In this document: positions 18,221 through 40,535 of the stretch, piece by piece
Numbering within the stretch: the first letter of the stretch is position 1
Layout: each line of letters starts with the position of its first letter
Origin: Pseudoalteromonas sp. MM1
GTDB lineage: Bacteria; Pseudomonadota; Gammaproteobacteria; Enterobacterales; Alteromonadaceae
DNA length: 64,000 nucleotides
Direction of reading: 5' to 3'
Assembly: GCF_030296835.1 (NCBI RefSeq)
Contig: NZ_AP027922.1
Location: 2,232,001-2,296,000 of the forward strand
Notes under the pieces: model-generated
What the model was told of the DNA's origin: nothing
Seen by the model: the letters and a program-made list of their open reading frames with translations, nothing else
Database searches by the model: none
Program-made: the position numbers and the translations under genes

Positions 18221-18260
18221 AGCTGTTCAGCTGTTCAGCTGTTCAGCTGTTCAGCTGTTC
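18221..18260. repeat. Octamer tandem repeat, 5 x AGCTGTTC
   Basis: Five exact, uninterrupted copies of AGCTGTTC occupy 40 bp. AGCTGTTCAGCT also contains overlapping PvuII-like CAGCTG palindromes at each junction. Perfect short tandem repeats are prone to slipped-strand copy-number change. Confidence 0.95.
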
Positions 18261-18292
18261 AAGAAATTAAAACGTAATAAATAACACAGGTA

Positions 18293-33735: not shown

Positions 33736-36168
33736 TTACAATGCCTGAATACTGTTTTCGTCAATTTCGGCGCTAAATAGCTGCTGAAATTGTACTATGT
33801 TTTCATCAGCTGTGATCACATCAATTGCTTGCTGGTGCCGTCCTGCATCTATTTTTTGCTGAATTAAATAAGGCGAGTCAATCACCCCTTTTGCAAAGTT
33901 AATACTCAGCGAAACGTTATGACCATATATGCTTGATAACGCCGCATCGAGCTTTTGCCTAAGCATAGGGGTATCTAAGTGTTTTTGTGATTCATCCACG
34001 TCAATATGTAAACTGTCGCCTTGCTTGGTAAAAATCGAGTGTAATGCAAATTGGCGCATCCGCCCACCAAGTCCCATGCGCTTAATTAAATAAGCCCACT
34101 CATCTTGCTGATGCGCAAATTTAATCTCGCTAATTGGGCTTTGAAAGTCATCGGGAACCGGTATAGCGGGCTCTTGCTCTATTACCTCAGGCTTTTTTTG
34201 CGGGTTAATTTGCTCAAGCAACTCAGGGGCTAAGTTTTCTGTAATCGTTTGGTGCTTTTGTTGAAAATCAACCTTACGCGCTGGCTGGCTTTGCGTTACT
34301 GGCTCAGCTGGCGTTTGGCTCCCTGTTACTGGGAGCGTTGGCTTTTTTTCGCTATCGCCTTGCGGATGGTCTTGCCATGGCGGTGAATCGTTTTGTGACT
34401 CACTCGCTTGCATGCTTGTATCGTGTGGCTTTGCTTGGTTGTCAGGCGTAGCTTGAGCAGGTGTTTTTGATGTTTGCGCTTGCTCAGGGGTATTTACACT
34501 CTCCCCTGAAAGCCTACCTGCACCCGATATATTTCTATCCCGTAAAATTCGCGCAATTGCTGATTGTGCTTGGGCTTCTTGTTCACGCACAGTGATATTT
34601 TCATCATCGGCTATGCCTGGCTCGTGTTGTTCTACAGGTGTAGGGTTATAACCTTGATCTACAGCACTGCTCATAACATCATCAAATTGTGCCGCTAAAT
34701 TTTGCTCCATATTACTGTGTTGCAGGTAAGCGTCGTCTTCACTTTGACGCTCAGCAGCTTCATCAGTTTTGGCCATTTTCTCGCCTTGCTGCACAGAGCT
34801 GGACGTATCGTTTGGAGTGTTTTGAACCGTAGAAGGTGCGCTGTTGTTGTCTTGTTCATTCGGCGAACTTGTTGGCGGCGCTGCGGGTTCATCAATTTTT
34901 TGGTTTTGCGCAGGGCTTTGCTCAACCATTGCTTGTGTAGCAGAGGTTTCGTTTTGCGACGGTGTTTTATTCTTATTTAATATATCGCGCAGCGCATCGG
35001 CACGGCCTTTACTACTGGTAGGCGCAGGCGTTGCTGTACTCGGTGTGTCACTAGGCTCAGGATGTGAATGAGCATAGGTTGTACCTGCCGATTCAAATGC
35101 TAACAATCGCAGCATTATCATTTCAAAGCCTAAACGAGGCTCTGGCGCCCATTGTAAGTCTTTTTTACCGTTTAATAGTAACTGGTAATAAATCTGTATT
35201 TGTTGAGCCTGGGTGTGCTGTGCAACATGGCTTATATAATCGGCATTTTTATCATCAAGTTGCGCGGCTTGAGGGACAAGCTGAGTTAATTGAACAAGGT
35301 GAGTTAATGCAATTAAATCATCAAGTAGGGCAATATAGTTAGGGTTACGGCTCGCTACTTGGGCTATTTCATCCATGAGTGCACCACCGTCTTGTGCTAA
35401 CAAAGCAGCAAGCAAACTTTGGCTATAATGTGTGTCCATTAAACCAAGCATGGCTTGCACGGCTTGATTGTTTATGTCGCCGTTGGTTTGCGCAATAGCT
35501 TGATCTGTTAAGCTCAAGGCGTCTCGCATACTGCCATCAGCGGCTTTTGCAATAATACTTAGTGCATCTTTATCAAAGTTTAGTTGCTCTTGAGTAAGTA
35601 CGTGTTCAAGCTGAGTTTTAATTTCACTTTGCGAAAGTGCATTTAAGTTAAACTGTAAGCAGCGCGATAAAATGGTAACAGGTAACTTTTGCGGATCGGT
35701 GGTTGCCAGTAAAAATTTCACATGCTCAGGCGGCTCTTCTAACGTTTTTAATAACGCATTAAAGCTATGCTTAGAAAGCATGTGCACTTCATCTATTAGG
35801 TATACTTTATAACGTCCGCGTGTTGGTGCGTATTGAACGTTATCAAGAATTTCACGAGTATCTTCGACTTTGGTGCGAGAAGCGGCATCAATTTCAAGTA
35901 AGTCAATGTATCGCCCTGACTCGATGTCAGTACAACTACTACATTGCCCACATGGAGATGCCGATATACCTTCGTCACAATTTAAGCTTTTAGCAAAAAT
36001 GCGTGCAATGGTGGTTTTACCCACACCACGGGTTCCAGTGAATAAATAAGCGTGATGCAGTCTATTTTGTGTAAGCGCATTAACAAGCGCTTGCTTTACA
36101 TGAGACTGGCCAACCAATTCATGAAAGGTTTGCGGACGCCATTTTCTAGCTAGAACCTGATAACTCAT
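33736..36168 (-). CDS. dnaX: DNA polymerase III tau subunit (gamma by frameshift?)
   Basis: An 810-residue clamp-loader ATPase, longer than E. coli DnaX (643) because of a ~300-residue Gln/Pro/Ser-rich linker. Walker A GTRGVGKTT is at residues 45-53, the zinc cysteines near 64-79 (CGQCSSC), Walker B-like LIDEVHML, and SRC (LSRCLQF). The C-terminal ~140 residues (from FAHQQDEWAYLIKRMG, near 680) are the alpha/DnaB-interacting domain V. ATG 36168 is used; the frame also opens 3 nt upstream at a TTG. An A-AAA-AAG heptamer at codons 657-659 would produce a gamma-like ~660-residue product. The gene starts 4 nt after the apt stop. Confidence 0.96.
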   Translation of the reverse strand: MSYQVLARKWRPQTFHELVGQSHVKQALVNALTQNRLHHAYLFTGTRGVGKTTIARIFAKSLNCDEGISASPCGQCSSCTDIESGRYIDLLEIDAASRTKVEDTREILDNVQYAPTRGRYKVYLIDEVHMLSKHSFNALLKTLEEPPEHVKFLLATTDPQKLPVTILSRCLQFNLNALSQSEIKTQLEHVLTQEQLNFDKDALSIIAKAADGSMRDALSLTDQAIAQTNGDINNQAVQAMLGLMDTHYSQSLLAALLAQDGGALMDEIAQVASRNPNYIALLDDLIALTHLVQLTQLVPQAAQLDDKNADYISHVAQHTQAQQIQIYYQLLLNGKKDLQWAPEPRLGFEMIMLRLLAFESAGTTYAHSHPEPSDTPSTATPAPTSSKGRADALRDILNKNKTPSQNETSATQAMVEQSPAQNQKIDEPAAPPTSSPNEQDNNSAPSTVQNTPNDTSSSVQQGEKMAKTDEAAERQSEDDAYLQHSNMEQNLAAQFDDVMSSAVDQGYNPTPVEQHEPGIADDENITVREQEAQAQSAIARILRDRNISGAGRLSGESVNTPEQAQTSKTPAQATPDNQAKPHDTSMQASESQNDSPPWQDHPQGDSEKKPTLPVTGSQTPAEPVTQSQPARKVDFQQKHQTITENLAPELLEQINPQKKPEVIEQEPAIPVPDDFQSPISEIKFAHQQDEWAYLIKRMGLGGRMRQFALHSIFTKQGDSLHIDVDESQKHLDTPMLRQKLDAALSSIYGHNVSLSINFAKGVIDSPYLIQQKIDAGRHQQAIDVITADENIVQFQQLFSAEIDENSIQAL
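34187..34198 (-). other. Candidate -1 programmed frameshift site in dnaX
   Basis: On the minus strand A-AAA-AAG (34198-34192) is in the correct phase (CAA AAA AAG). After a -1 slip the next codons are GCC TGA, giving immediate termination. A stem GGT(A)ATAG/CTATACC can form 5 nt downstream. The same heptamer makes the gamma subunit in E. coli. No upstream SD-like stimulator is seen. Confidence 0.6.
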
Positions 36169-36171
36169 CAA

Positions 36172-36717
36172 TTACTCGCCTTCAAACTCAACCAGTTTTA
36201 AGATTTTAATACCCATTTTTTCTATACGATGCTCACCACCAAGCTCTGGTAATGAAACAACAAACGCAGCATCAGTGGCTGTGCCGCCTAATTTTGCAAC
36301 TAGCTTTGCTGTGGCTTCAATTGTGCCACCGGTAGCTAATAAATCATCAACTAATAATACTTTGTCGCCTGGGACAATAGCATCAACATGAAGCTCTAAT
36401 GTGTCTTCACCGTATTCAAGTAGGTAATCTTGGCGAATCACTTCGCGCGGTAGCTTGCCTGGCTTACGAACAGGAATAAAAGGGATCCCTAACGCGTAAG
36501 ATAGCGGCGCACCAAAAATAAAGCCGCGAGATTCTGTACCAATAATTTTTGTAAAGCCTTGGTTTTTATATTCGTTTATAAAAGCATCAATTGTTGCTTT
36601 AAAGGCTTCTGGATTTGCCATTAGTGTTGTTACATCACGAAACATAATGCCTGGTTTAGGATAGTCGGCAATGGTTGCGATACTGTTTTTAATAATAGCG
36701 GGTGTTACTTGAGTCAT
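36172..36717 (-). CDS. apt: Adenine phosphoribosyltransferase
   Basis: A 181-residue purine-salvage enzyme converting adenine and PRPP to AMP. The PRPP-binding motif [16 protein letters not shown] and the flexible-loop region [15 protein letters not shown] are intact; [13 protein letters not shown] matches Apt. Length fits E. coli Apt (183). First gene of the apt-dnaX-ybaB-recR cluster. Confidence 0.97.
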
Positions 36718-36847
36718 AAGTTTAATTGCTCAATAGTTTATATTTCAAAGCAGCTGATTATAACCTTAACTGACGTTAAAATGCGAGTTTGCTGTCATTA
36801 ATACCGAGGTGGTTTGAAAATTATAAGGGTGGAGGAGGAAAAGAAGC

Positions 36848-36875
36848 TTAAGGCTGATATAAACAACAGCCTTAA
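36848..36875 (-). terminator. Hairpin after the 40-residue membrane gene
   Basis: TTAAGGCTG (36848-36856) and CAGCCTTAA (36867-36875) are perfectly complementary around a 10-nt loop. Reading on the minus strand it follows the small gene by 14 nt, with CTTCTTTTCCT downstream as a weak U-rich tail. Confidence 0.55.
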
Positions 36876-36889
36876 TAAAGCAAGGAGCT

Positions 36890-37012
36890 TTAGGTTAGGC
36901 TTGTGATCCAGCCTAAAATCGCATTTAAACAGCCAATACCCACAAAAACTGCTAAAAAAGCAATAAAGTAGGTAGCATTAAACGGATCTTTAAAGTCTTT
37001 ATCATCTGACAT
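36890..37012 (-). CDS. Unlisted 40-residue single-pass membrane peptide
   Basis: A short frame, MSDDKDFKDPFNATYFIAFL followed by a hydrophobic stretch and the end GWITSLT. The first ~12 residues are acidic and hydrophilic, and residues 15-36 form one transmembrane helix containing a single Cys28. An SD-like AAAGG precedes the ATG by 9 nt and a hairpin follows the stop. It starts 71 nt after the DUF2063 gene on the same strand, so it may be the distal gene of the RiPP cluster, in the place where DoxX-type genes occur in related loci, or it may be independent. I do not recognise a family. Confidence 0.6.
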   Translation of the reverse strand: MSDDKDFKDPFNATYFIAFLAVFVGIGCLNAILGWITSLT

Positions 37013-37083
37013 TGGTATAACCTTTTTTAAGCACGACAAATAAGGCTGCCATGATAGACGAAGTAAAAAAATCTATAAAGCCC

Positions 37084-37836
37084 TTAATGTTGATTTTTTG
37101 TCACGATAATCCCGCGCTCGCACATTGCATTGAGCGTACTTAATGCTCCATGTGCAATTTGTTGTTGAGTAAAATTAGGCGCATGAGCTAAAACCTGTTG
37201 GCATACACTCTCAAAGTCAATGCCTGTATTTGACTCTATTATAGAAAGTAGTAAAGCGGTCATTGCATTGGTGGCTAAAAACTGTACGTCGTCGTTATTA
37301 TCTCTATAAACCACAAAGTAATTGGGCTGCTCTGATGGCACGCTAGGTTTATATTCTGTACTAATATTTTGAACTGCATACTGGTAGCTTAAATTACGTG
37401 CTACACTCGACAAGTAAAGCTCGGCACTAGTCAGTTCGGTACTTTTTAAGCGTTGATCATTAACGTCTTCATTAGCCACCGAAACATCAAGCTCAATCCA
37501 CTCATAATGTGCCAGCTCCAACATAAATGGGTAATCGTACTCTTGCATTGTATAGCCGTTCGATAAGTAATTAATAAACTCCCCTGCAATATCTAAAAAA
37601 TAAGGCGACTTACAGTCGTGCTCATTAAAAAATGTTCTTACTAATTTTTGCCATTGCTGCTGTGTGTATAACGTTTTGAGTACCGGAAAACCAGATGAAA
37701 TAAACCCGGCAATATTGTTAAAAAATAAATCGCGGTAAATCGCCATGCGCCTATCTTCGATATCTTTAGGCTTTTGGTTGAGCTGAGGCTCACGAATGTG
37801 CGCCATAAATTCGTTTTGCGTGTCAATAAAGTTCAT
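37084..37836 (-). CDS. DUF2063 partner of MNIO enzyme (BufC/HvfC-type)
   Basis: A 250-residue cytoplasmic protein. The N-terminal ~95 residues match the DUF2063 domain (QNEFMAHIREP; RMAIYRDLFFNNIAGFISSGFPVLK), and the C-terminal part is a helical/winged domain with QQIAHGALSTLNAMCERGIIV. In bufferin and oxazolin systems this partner binds the precursor leader and presents it to the DUF692 enzyme. The gene is 13 nt downstream of the DUF692 gene and clearly co-expressed. Function is inferred from this association. Confidence 0.85.
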   Translation of the reverse strand: MNFIDTQNEFMAHIREPQLNQKPKDIEDRRMAIYRDLFFNNIAGFISSGFPVLKTLYTQQQWQKLVRTFFNEHDCKSPYFLDIAGEFINYLSNGYTMQEYDYPFMLELAHYEWIELDVSVANEDVNDQRLKSTELTSAELYLSSVARNLSYQYAVQNISTEYKPSVPSEQPNYFVVYRDNNDDVQFLATNAMTALLLSIIESNTGIDFESVCQQVLAHAPNFTQQQIAHGALSTLNAMCERGIIVTKNQH

Positions 37837-37849
37837 TTACCTTCCTTAT

Positions 37850-38707
37850 TTACGCTGTTTGCTGAGTAAGCGTTGAACTTGCGTTTTTATTTTGTAAATC
37901 GTGAATAATATCAAGCTCTTTTGTTAGTGTATTTATGCTTGGAATATTAAAGTCACGCTCCAATAAGGTAGGAAACACCCCATGCGCTTGGTATGCTTTA
38001 TCAAGCAAGTCCCAAACGGGGTCTATAACATCAGCGCCATGGGTATCAACAATTAAATCATCGGCTTCATTGTAGTGACCTGCTACGTGCCCATATGCAA
38101 TTCTGTTTGTAGGTAGCCCTAATAAAAACGCATCTGCATTGTAACCATGATTAATTGAATTAACATAAATATTATTTACATCAAGTAGTAGTTTACAATC
38201 AGCTTGCTCTAAAATCGCATTAGTAAATTCAAGCTCAGATAACTGCTGGCCAGGCGCTGCATAATAAGAGACATTTTCGATGGCTATTTGGCGCTCTAAA
38301 ATATCTTGCACTTGTTTGATCCGAGGTACAACGTGTGCAATGGCATCTTCAGTAAAAGGGATTGGCATTAAATCGTACATATGTCCTTTACCCGAGCAGT
38401 AACTAAGGTGTTCACTAAATAGTTTAATATTGTGTTGATCAAAAAACGTTTTTAGCGATTTAACAAAGTCAATATCAAGAGGTTCAGGCGAACCGATAGA
38501 AAGCGATAAACCATGGCAAACAAAATTATTGGCGTCAGTTAATGTTTTAAATTGTTTTTTAAAGCGGCCTCCTAGCTTAAGCCAGTTTTCAGGCGCCACT
38601 TCCATAAAATCAATTTGCTTGGGTATATGCACTAGTAATTCATCAAGCATCTCTCGACGAAGGCCTAAGCCAACCATCCCAAATGCTGAGTTTTGTGAAG
38701 CTTTCAT
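37850..38707 (-). CDS. DUF692 multinuclear iron oxidase (MNIO; BufB/HvfB-type)
   Basis: A 285-residue TIM-barrel enzyme of the DUF692/MNIO family. Expected motifs are in order: GLGLR, FMEVAPENW, CHGLSLSIGS, SEHLSYCSG, IENVSYY, LLLDVNNIYVNSINHG, AGH, DTHGADV and LLERD, which supply the His/Asp/Glu ligands of two or three iron ions. MNIO enzymes use O2 to remodel cysteine residues in RiPP precursors, here probably those in the EGKCG repeats of the adjacent precursor. Two ATGs overlap; the second (38707) is 6 nt from the SD AGGAG and preferred. It is preceded by a hairpin that separates it from the precursor gene. Confidence 0.9.
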   Translation of the reverse strand: MKASQNSAFGMVGLGLRREMLDELLVHIPKQIDFMEVAPENWLKLGGRFKKQFKTLTDANNFVCHGLSLSIGSPEPLDIDFVKSLKTFFDQHNIKLFSEHLSYCSGKGHMYDLMPIPFTEDAIAHVVPRIKQVQDILERQIAIENVSYYAAPGQQLSELEFTNAILEQADCKLLLDVNNIYVNSINHGYNADAFLLGLPTNRIAYGHVAGHYNEADDLIVDTHGADVIDPVWDLLDKAYQAHGVFPTLLERDFNIPSINTLTKELDIIHDLQNKNASSTLTQQTA

Positions 38708-38725
38708 CATTATCTCCTAAAACAA

Positions 38726-38745
38726 AAAGGGCCTTTTGGCCCTTT
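38726..38745 (-). terminator. Intercistronic hairpin between precursor and MNIO genes
   Basis: AAAGGGCC (38726-38733) and GGCCCTTT (38738-38745) form an 8-bp stem with a TTTT loop, followed on the minus strand by TTTGTTTTAG. It sits just before the SD of the DUF692 gene. Partial termination here would give abundant precursor mRNA and little enzyme mRNA. Confidence 0.7.
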
Positions 38746-38789
38746 AGCATAACGTATATCTGAGTAACTCAGGTAGTTAAGTCAGCGTG

Positions 38790-39275
38790 TTATTGGCCAC
38801 CACATTTACCTTCGCCGCACTTACCTTCTTTTTTACCTTTTGCGTCGCCACCACATTTGCCTTCGCCGCATTTACCTTCTTTTTTACCTTTTGCGTCGCC
38901 GCCACATTTGCCTTCGCCGCATTTACCTTCTTTTTTACCCTTTGCGTCGCCGCCACATTTGCCTTCGCCGCATTTACCTTCTTTTTTACCTTTTGCGTCG
39001 CCGCCACATTTACCTTCGCCGCATTTACCTTCTTTTTTACCTTTTGCGTCGCCGCCACATTTGCCTTCGCCGCATTTACCTTCTTTTTTACCTTTTGCGT
39101 CGCCGCCACATTTACCTTCACCGCATTTACCTTCTGCAGCATCAAGTTGATAACCCGTCACTAGCTGTTGGAATTCAAATGGGTTTGCTTGTGCATCTGC
39201 AGAGGCAAAACTTGCAGAGCCAACAACTACTGCACCTAAGGTTAACGCGATTGAATTTTTCTTTACTGTGTTCAT
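38790..39275 (-). CDS. Multi-EGKCG RiPP precursor (bufferin/HvfA-type)
   Basis: A 161-residue exported peptide precursor. Residues 1-~28 are a Sec signal peptide (ALTLGAVVVGSASFASADA). A short linker (NPFEFQQLVTGYQLDAA) leads to a core of six 17-residue units EGKCGEGKCGGDAKGKK plus one final EGKCGEGKCGGQ, i.e. 14 EGKCG motifs and 14 cysteines, with no other cysteine in the mature region. In characterised bufferins and HvfA, the EGKCG cysteine is converted by the DUF692 enzyme to a copper-binding heterocycle. This protein should thus be an unusually multivalent periplasmic metal-binding peptide. A -35/-10 pair lies just upstream. Confidence 0.9.
   Translation of the reverse strand: MNTVKKNSIALTLGAVVVGSASFASADAQANPFEFQQLVTGYQLDAAEGKCGEGKCGGDAKGKKEGKCGEGKCGGDAKGKKEGKCGEGKCGGDAKGKKEGKCGEGKCGGDAKGKKEGKCGEGKCGGDAKGKKEGKCGEGKCGGDAKGKKEGKCGEGKCGGQ
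38797..39138 (-). repeat. 51-bp tandem repeat array in the precursor gene
   Basis: Six complete 51-bp units plus a 36-bp partial unit, differing from each other by only a few mostly synonymous bases (for example CCA/CCG and ACC/GCC on the plus strand). The near identity implies recent duplication or ongoing homogenisation. Open frames on the other strand and frames are by-products of this repetition. Confidence 0.95.
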
Positions 39276-39300
39276 TGTATGACTCTCTTATATAAGTATT

Positions 39301-39327
39301 AAAATAATGCAAGCTAATTATTGTCAA
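39301..39327 (-). promoter_or_regulatory. Possible promoter of the RiPP precursor gene
   Basis: On the minus strand a perfect TTGACA (39327-39322) is followed after 15 nt by TATTTT (39306-39301). Spacing is short of the ideal 17, so an activator may be needed. The leader would be about 20 nt. No metal-regulator box is obvious. Confidence 0.4.
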
Positions 39328-39497
39328 TTATGCGTTGCTTGTATGATTAAATAGACCTGATAGAAAATAAAAACTTTCATTTATTTTCATTTTTTTTACT
39401 TTTAAATTTGTACAAACAAATATGGACTGTAATTTAGGTTTTATCAAACCATACTTTGCAGGTACACTACGCACCCGTTTTTCAATAAACATACTTT

Positions 39498-40478
39498 ATG
39501 AAACTTGTTTTAGCGCCTATGGAAGGTGTTGTTGATTTTAAAATGCGCCAACTTCTTACTAATATTGGTGGCTTTGACCTATGCGTAACTGAATTTGTTA
39601 GAGTAATTGATAAACGTTTACCGGCTAAAGTTTTTCATCGCTATTGCCCTGAGCTCAATAATGATGGTTTAACAAAAGCTGGGACTCCTGTGCGCATACA
39701 GTTGTTAGGGCAAGTGGCAGACGTATTAGCAGAAAATGCGGTTAGAGCTATCGAATTAGGCTCTCACGGTATAGATCTTAATTTTGGCTGCCCTGCAAAA
39801 ACAGTAAATAAAAGTCGTGGTGGTGCTGTACTGCTAAAAGACCCTGATCATATGTATAACATAATCAAAGCGGTAAGGGATGCGGTAGATAGTAAACAAC
39901 AAGTAAGCGCTAAAATACGCTTAGGCTTTGATGATGATAGCAATAGCCAAGAGATTGTAGATGCAGTTGTAAGCGCCGGCGCAGATAGTATTGCAATACA
40001 TGCCCGTACCAAGCGTGACGGTTATAACCCTCCTGCATATTGGGAAAAAATACCTCCGCTAATAAAAGGTAAAAACATAGCAGTGGTTGCCAACGGTGAA
40101 ATTTGGCAAGTAGAAGATGCGCTACTTTGCCAAACACGCAGCCAGTGTAGCGATTTAATGCTAGGGCGCGGTGCGCTTTCTCACCCTGATTTAGCGAAAA
40201 AAATTAAAGCTCATGTTAATAATGAACAATACAATGGCCTAGAGTGGGAACATATAATTTATCATTTAATTCATTCTGCTATTCATCAAGACCCCACACA
40301 AGATGAAAAATATTTTGCCTCGCGAACTAAACAATGGCTTGGCTATCTTAAACGCCAATACCCACAAGCAAATGTACTCTTTGATGAAATAAGACGTCTT
40401 AAAGTAAAAAGTGATGTAGCCGAGGTTTTAAAAAAATATGCTAAGTCTCCGCAACTTGATTCAAATCATAACGTATAA
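39498..40478 (+). CDS. dusC: tRNA-dihydrouridine(16) synthase DusC
   Basis: A 326-residue FMN enzyme that reduces U16 of tRNA. It opens with LAPMEGVVDFKMR and the DusC-type TEFVRVIDKRLPAKVFHRYCPEL; the active-site Cys98 is in NFGCPAKTVN. FMN phosphate motifs VVANGEIW and LMLGRGAL are present. DusC rather than DusA/B is assigned from the N-terminal PMEGV-D and VFHR signatures. Length is close to E. coli DusC (315). The SD is weak. Confidence 0.93.
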   Translation: MKLVLAPMEGVVDFKMRQLLTNIGGFDLCVTEFVRVIDKRLPAKVFHRYCPELNNDGLTKAGTPVRIQLLGQVADVLAENAVRAIELGSHGIDLNFGCPAKTVNKSRGGAVLLKDPDHMYNIIKAVRDAVDSKQQVSAKIRLGFDDDSNSQEIVDAVVSAGADSIAIHARTKRDGYNPPAYWEKIPPLIKGKNIAVVANGEIWQVEDALLCQTRSQCSDLMLGRGALSHPDLAKKIKAHVNNEQYNGLEWEHIIYHLIHSAIHQDPTQDEKYFASRTKQWLGYLKRQYPQANVLFDEIRRLKVKSDVAEVLKKYAKSPQLDSNHNV

Positions 40479-40535
40479 GCAGCACAGCTCAGATAATACA
40501 GGTATAACGAAACGCTAAATAAAGGTTATACCAAC

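Follow-up and report, generated by a model that had tools for sequence, protein, structure and literature searches.

How unusual is a peptide precursor that carries 14 EGKCG motifs, and what might switch on the operon that encodes it? These questions are raised by a locus in a 64,000-nucleotide stretch of Pseudoalteromonas sp. MM1 (contig NZ_AP027922.1, positions 2,232,001 to 2,296,000; hereafter the window), where the precursor gene hvfA is followed by hvfB and hvfC, encoding a DUF692 (MNIO) maturase and a DUF2063 partner protein. A preliminary description, made from the sequence alone, had presented the cluster as an exceptionally multivalent and under-described system of bufferin/oxazolin type. 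We find that 14 sites is an ordinary size for Pseudoalteromonas and that the cluster belongs to a family already named and widespread. What is new is a two-block element upstream of hvfA, conserved in sequence across several genera, which may link this family to the repair of methionine sulfoxide.

The basic reading of the locus holds: the open reading frames (ORFs) and Tandem Repeats Finder confirm a precursor with 14 EGKCG motifs in 17-residue units, with the DUF692 and DUF2063 genes after it. The repeat region consists of six EGKCGEGKCGGDAKGKK units and a final EGKCGEGKCGGQ, and since its DNA has a period of 51 bp, 6.7 copies and 96% matches, the array is not a product of chance; the seven 30-nt cores encoding EGKCGEGKCG have a mean identity of 94.6%. 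Judged by eye, with no predictor, a Lys-containing N-terminus, a hydrophobic stretch and AQA-NPF suggest a Sec-type signal. The NCBIfam model NF050137 (KCGExKCG_twice, a domain model named for the HvfA family) matches the precursor in six stretches with 135.6 bits (cut-off 19.5), and in a search of the whole genome its matches are confined to the hvfA array. A Pfam search of the precursor returned no domain.

Both enzymes fall into the corresponding families. HvfB scores 439 bits against NF003818 (cut-off 360) in NCBIfam and 346 bits against PF05114 in Pfam, and matches PDB 3bww at E 1.3e-74. HvfC, the DUF2063/RRE partner, scores 301.5 bits against NF050145 (cut-off 142), matches PF09836 and PF22106 in Pfam, and PDB 3dee at E 5.9e-9. 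The BufB equivalog NF050167 reaches 265.2 bits, under its cut-off of 310, and the methanobactin MbnB equivalog TIGR04159 only 39 bits against a cut-off of 325. With the HvfB, HvfC and KCGExKCG models over their cut-offs and BufB under, we assign the cluster to the oxazolin (HvfABC) type; strictly defined, it is no bufferin. These profile scores place it in the HvfABC family (also called oxazolin, Buf_EGKCG or captophorin), which has been published, is named in NCBIfam and has relatives whose chemistry is in print; it can hardly be called under-described. Two results run against this assignment. The narrow HvfA equivalog NF050188 gives 87.2 bits, slightly under its cut-off of 95, plausibly because the array is longer. 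An AlphaFold2 model of the precursor (30-sequence alignment) has a mean predicted local distance difference test score of 35.5, with no secondary structure and no fold, and does not reproduce the beta-helix modelled for a mid-size Pseudoalteromonas precursor in the available text of PMC12452194; this prediction neither supports nor disproves a folded unmodified array in the HvfA studied here. The genome search gave a single MNIO match in MM1. Among the matches listed, many members of the genus have a second, remoter MNIO (34-38% identity to HvfB), of which none was found in MM1. A plasmid search for the hvf cluster gave no match.

To place the array among its relatives, we surveyed the genus. 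The hvfB gene is present in 107/108 Pseudoalteromonas genomes, and the precursor was examined at each of these 107 loci. Twelve were left out of the array counts: nine arrays cut by a contig end, L114 (precursor off the contig), L041 (a run of N/X) and L084 (a false ORF near a contig end). In the 95 complete arrays, the number of EGKCG motifs has a median of 14 and a range of 4-58; exactly 14 occur in 27 arrays, fewer in 44 and more in 24. The description of the precursor as exceptionally multivalent is thus not borne out. The longest array (L106, genome G045) has 58 EGKCG motifs in one precursor, with KGKK- and KGEK-type spacer blocks, and equals the published count of 58 Cys for P. piscicida, the longest of the 17-residue two-motif repeat precursors reported, Pseudoalteromonas included, in the available text of PMC12452194. 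Compared with these Buf_EGKCG/oxazolin type 1 precursors, the architecture of the window's precursor is identical and its size is in the middle; nothing categorical differs. In other genera, the KCG count does not exceed 14 over 53 loci (9/53 without a complete precursor). That the long array of the window is an artefact of assembly or annotation is barely credible: contigs do end inside the array at nine loci and one precursor lies off its contig, but the window is on a 3.69-Mb contig of a two-contig genome, and 95 arrays from this and other genomes have the same design.

The number of sites is also far from fixed, as the preliminary description had supposed for the 51-bp array. Where the HvfB of two loci is identical at 98% or more of positions, the KCG count is unequal in 14/19 pairs; L134 and L136 have 18 and 13 sites, although their HvfB is 100% identical over the aligned stretch, and L131 and L132 (G101 and G037), variant arrays with EAKCG as the second motif, have 11 and 27 KCG with HvfB 98.2% identical. 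The nearest-neighbour locus has an unequal KCG count in 73/95 cases, and the difference in array length barely tracks HvfB identity (Spearman -0.07). As contigs end inside the array at 9/107 loci, some of these differences may be assembly effects. The EGKCG count is even in 79/95 arrays and odd in 16/95, and the commonest repeat period is 17 residues (54/95). The site count drifts quickly, mostly through in-frame two-motif units. Such natural differences between close relatives (11 vs 27, 16 vs 58) offer material for relating metal capacity to site number. At the strain level the picture is less settled: three sequences with a leader identical to that of the window (P0004, P0037 and P0045, among the best 120 of 6443 matches) have 8, 6 and 2 EGKCG motifs, but come from metagenome collections or short contigs and are possibly cut or misassembled.

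We also considered strong concerted evolution of the units. Synonymous identity is 0.904 within arrays and 0.878 between arrays, and is higher within an array than its own between-array mean in 85/95 cases. It is above that with every other locus in only 12/95, indicating weak homogenisation of the DNA, and we rejected the strong form as unsupported.

What the cluster makes can be read across from its relatives, whose properties we give as they stand in the available parts of the respective papers. The heterocycle of the EGKCG family is now described as a 5-thiooxazole (PMC13097082, PMC13419390); in co-expressed HvfA every EGKCG is fully modified (PMC13097082), and HvfC is required for this modification (PMC13097082, PMC13419390). 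Copper binding is reported for EGKCG relatives (PMC13097082, PMC13419390), and bufferins give a growth benefit under copper (PMC12452194). By analogy, HvfC would bind the HvfA leader and activate HvfB, an iron-dependent oxidase, which would turn the EGKCG cysteines into 5-thiooxazoles before or during Sec export. If all sites are modified, the exported product would carry up to 14 ligands for soft metals and may sequester copper, the likely physiological metal. Taking family, mechanism and ordinary size together, we are confident that the locus encodes an HvfABC metallophore.

Three further published systems are close to this one, again as far as the available texts describe them. Nontypeable Haemophilus influenzae HvfABC(X)/oxazolin shares the EGKCG precursor, apparently of Sec type in the window too, the MNIO and the DUF2063/RRE partner (PMC13419390, PMC7907618). 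It differs in having 6 modifiable Cys rather than 14 EGKCG motifs and a DoxX-like gene in the operon, which the window's locus lacks; its operon is also controlled by RpoE2, whereas a conserved element, with no mapped promoter, is the sole regulatory evidence in the window. The captophorins fontiphorin and gonophorin (PMC13097082) likewise have EGKCG repeats, modified to 5-thiooxazole by an MNIO-PME1 pair; the precursor FonA has 7 sites, and for the window's member this chemistry is a prediction. Finally, the Microbulbifer mmrABC cluster (PMC12538549) has an EGKCG precursor, an MNIO and a DUF2063 protein, but belongs to another genus and has 5-8 EGKCG Cys per precursor; the word DoxX is absent from the text available to us.

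The regulatory element emerged from an upstream alignment of 30 loci, in which it is the one strongly conserved feature. Within 260 bp upstream of hvfA, the pattern GAAA-N16-18-GGTC[TA] is found in 94/95 genus loci and its reversed control in 0/95; the first block is TGAAA in 86 and CGAAA in 8, and L143 alone has no element. Outside the genus, it occurs in 38 of the 44 loci with a complete precursor (control 1/44), while a stricter pattern with a further A occurs in 22/44 (control 1). By comparison, 86/5350 stretches of 260 bp drawn at random from the genus loci contain it, a background that still includes the real sites. We found no title or start of an abstract describing such an element in Pseudoalteromonas or Shewanella, in a search that largely left aside subscription journals.

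Two blocks at this spacing resemble a promoter for an extracytoplasmic function (ECF) sigma factor. The meningococcal sigma-E consensus is GTMAGBWTT - 12-13 nt - CGTCTAAH, and this factor controls the homologous operon together with msrAB (PMC2893595); in H. influenzae, RpoE2 controls the DoxX/HvfABC operon and msrAB, and the operon is induced by hypochlorous acid (PMC7907618). In the available text of PMC3511200, the Caulobacter sigma-F motif is different (GTAACC-N16-CGAA). The window reads GAAAGTTTT - 12 nt - GGTCTATT, agreeing with the neisserial consensus at 8/9 and 6/8 positions.

The second target of the neisserial and Haemophilus regulons also seems to carry the element. In MM1 it lies 76 nt upstream of an MsrA (PF01625) that looks periplasmic, with a signal peptide recognised by eye. 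We listed 30 MsrA loci from the genus. At the 21 with close full-length orthologues, the strict element is present in 19 and the NGAAA form in all 21; it is found at 0/7 remote MsrA and 1/2 broken msrA copies (start positions extrapolated for these nine), and the reversed control at 0/30. In G037 an internal stop disrupts msrA, which matches only in part, and in G065 the gene is divided between two matches (L302, L303). When MM1 and three further genomes (G016, G101 and G105) were searched as a whole, the intergenic matches recurring in all four were those at hvfA, msrA and cutA, although the msrA site of G016 falls within an artificially long ORF. The other recurring matches are intragenic, lying in what we take to be rpoA and peroxiredoxin genes and in a 1.7-kb ORF. 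In MM1 dsbD follows cutA (Pfam CutA1 and DsbD), and the element stands 153 nt before the pair (L260, 1501-1529, minus strand). On the other strand are fxsA (Pfam) and, by eye, groES/groEL-like genes; conservation of the cutA site may partly reflect what is presumably a heat-shock promoter directed towards fxsA. The hvfA element therefore seems to be common to the periplasmic-looking msrA and possibly to cutA-dsbD.

Several observations weigh against an ECF promoter. Over the genus, agreement with the neisserial -35 region has a median of 6/9 (range 4-8), a score reached by 11% of random places, and at the 19 strict msrA sites its median of 4/9 is the random level; agreement at -10 has a genus median of 6/8. 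The resemblance to Neisseria thus lies in the -10 block, in the spacing and in having both targets in common, rather than in the -35. Genome-wide, matches to TGAAA-N16-18-GGTCTA are near chance, with 9 against 6 for the reversed pattern in MM1 and 13/2, 4/6 and 8/4 (25 matches) in G016, G101 and G105. In the window, the hvfA site is the sole match to GAAA-N16-18-GGTC[TA] on either strand, but the reversed control has five, so that the element is singled out by its conservation and place rather than by rarity. A cognate sigma factor did not come to light either: PF08281 has 18 matches in MM1, and none of the 15 with loci, some of which are not sigma factors, has the element upstream. For TIGR02943, which we take to be the family of Neisseria-type sigma factors, all scores in MM1 stay under the cut-off, and an extra TIGR02943 locus is without the element upstream. 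One locus in this search (L268) has a larger, ZAS-bearing neighbour that we assume to be ChrR-like.

The missing sigma factor, the near-chance counts and the poor -35 agreement would also suit an operator bound by some repressor or activator, e.g. one that responds to copper or redox state, or else an RNA element. Against this stand the two blocks separated by 16-18 nt of free sequence, a GGTCTA block resembling the neisserial -10 CGTCTA (PMC2893595), and the same two targets, the EGKCG operon and msrA, as in Neisseria and Haemophilus (PMC2893595, PMC7907618); and no Rfam family matches positions 36000-40500 at its gathering threshold. We consider an operator or RNA element unlikely, though still worth keeping in view, and lean towards an ECF-sigma promoter. 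The regulons of Neisseria sigma-E and H. influenzae RpoE2 are alike in placing an EGKCG operon and msrAB under one ECF sigma factor, with a similar -10 and spacing, as far as the available texts go. In Neisseria the sigma gene is inside the operon, whereas none is linked to it in the window and the -35 agreement is weak in the genus. The operon is probably under an unlinked ECF sigma factor.

If so, the operon would probably be switched on by envelope stress, oxidative and/or copper, from a promoter held in common with periplasmic msrA and possibly cutA-dsbD. This company might suggest that the array is primarily a thiol or oxidant sink, or another helper in envelope repair under hypochlorous acid stress, with copper binding secondary; the induction of the H. 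influenzae operon by hypochlorous acid (PMC7907618) fits such a role. But EGKCG relatives bind copper (PMC13097082, PMC13419390), bufferins aid growth under it (PMC12452194), and CutA1 is itself named in Pfam as a divalent-ion tolerance family, and we regard a mainly oxidant-directed function as rather improbable beside a copper-binding one. We tentatively propose that in Pseudoalteromonas, Shewanella, Rheinheimera and relatives, the EGKCG operon, periplasmic msrA and cutA-dsbD form a small envelope-stress regulon under an ECF sigma factor encoded elsewhere. Thiooxazole arrays would then be deployed beside methionine-sulfoxide repair, with the number of sites (4 to 58) as a fast-moving, in-frame dose trait; this is a possibility that falls somewhat short of an even chance. 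The occurrence of the element over several genera suggests that the link between EGKCG metallophores and methionine-sulfoxide repair extends beyond Haemophilus and Neisseria, to operons with neither DoxX nor a linked sigma gene. The coordinates of the system and its neighbours are collected in Table 1.

Table 1. Features of the hvf locus and its surroundings, in window coordinates
Feature	Coordinates	Strand	Details
hvfA precursor	38790..39275	-	161 aa; leader/Sec-type signal at about residues 1-47 (NPF, GYQ motifs), then 14 EGKCG sites
Tandem array	38796..39135	-	51-bp (17-residue) unit, 6.7 copies
hvfB, MNIO (DUF692) maturase	37850..38710	-	286 aa; NF003818, PF05114, PDB 3bww
hvfC, DUF2063 partner protein	37084..37836	-	250 aa; NF050145, PF09836, PF22106, PDB 3dee
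Promoter-like element, proposed ECF-sigma promoter	39352..39379	-	TGAAAGTTTTTATTTTCTATCAGGTCTA: GAAAGTTTT, 12 nt, GGTCTA; 104 nt before hvfA start
40-aa protein with a single transmembrane segment, not part of the system	36890..37009	-	MSDDKDFKDPFN...GCLNAILGW
apt (adenine phosphoribosyltransferase), neighbour, not part	36172..36717	-	NCBIfam, synteny
dusC-like tRNA dihydrouridine synthase, divergent neighbour, not part	39498..40478	+	NCBIfam DusC 337 bits (under 395 cut-off), Pfam Dus

The preliminary description had also remarked on a missing DoxX-like gene. It is indeed missing here, but it is equally unseen at all 107 genus loci. This survey took one DoxX protein of MM1 as query and, on each side, the 14 ORF clusters with most members, with upstream ORFs from 97 loci; it could overlook a DoxX that occurs singly at an individual locus. 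MM1 has two DoxX-family matches elsewhere in its genome and none at the hvf locus. In a set of 80 named loci (27 from Pseudoalteromonas), a DoxX-like ORF follows hvfC in three (L189, L204 and L220), all outside the genus; they form one cluster, to which L204 and L220 were assigned by length and hydrophobicity. A DoxX gene is common in HvfABC clusters but not obligatory; in the available text of PMC12452194, clusters occur in varied gene combinations.

Could the small membrane protein of 40 aa whose gene comes directly after hvfC stand in for the missing DoxX? This highly conserved protein is found in this position at at least 106/107 genus loci (for L120 the pattern search gave a different ORF) and matches no Pfam or NCBIfam family at its cut-off. 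At E <= 0.001 it is present in 66/394 genomes of the order, however, and at 30 such loci (L226-L255) apt is nearby in 30/30 and hvf in only 9/30; the other 21 have no hvf within 1.5 kb on either side. There is also a natural deletion: G006, the sole genus member without hvfB, lacks hvfAB and most of hvfC, but retains the 40-aa gene, apt, dusC and a C-terminal remnant of hvfC. These apt loci with no hvf in that range and the G006 deletion speak against the protein as a DoxX substitute; the idea is largely refuted, and we give it very little credence. The 40-aa membrane protein belongs with apt and not with the hvf cluster. The interval first drawn around the cluster (36890..39275) reaches too far at its low end, taking in this unrelated ORF.

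In G006 (L256), the region around 2381-2590 looks like the scar of a deletion. There, flanked by dusC and the 40-aa gene, a stretch that by eye resembles the hvfA promoter region lies close to what is left of hvfC. The surroundings of the locus are otherwise stable, with apt and dnaX downstream in 100/107 genus loci each and dusC upstream in 96/97 of those examined. Elsewhere in the window, positions 18221-18261 hold a perfect 8-bp tandem repeat, AGCTGTTC, in 5.1 copies (Tandem Repeats Finder).

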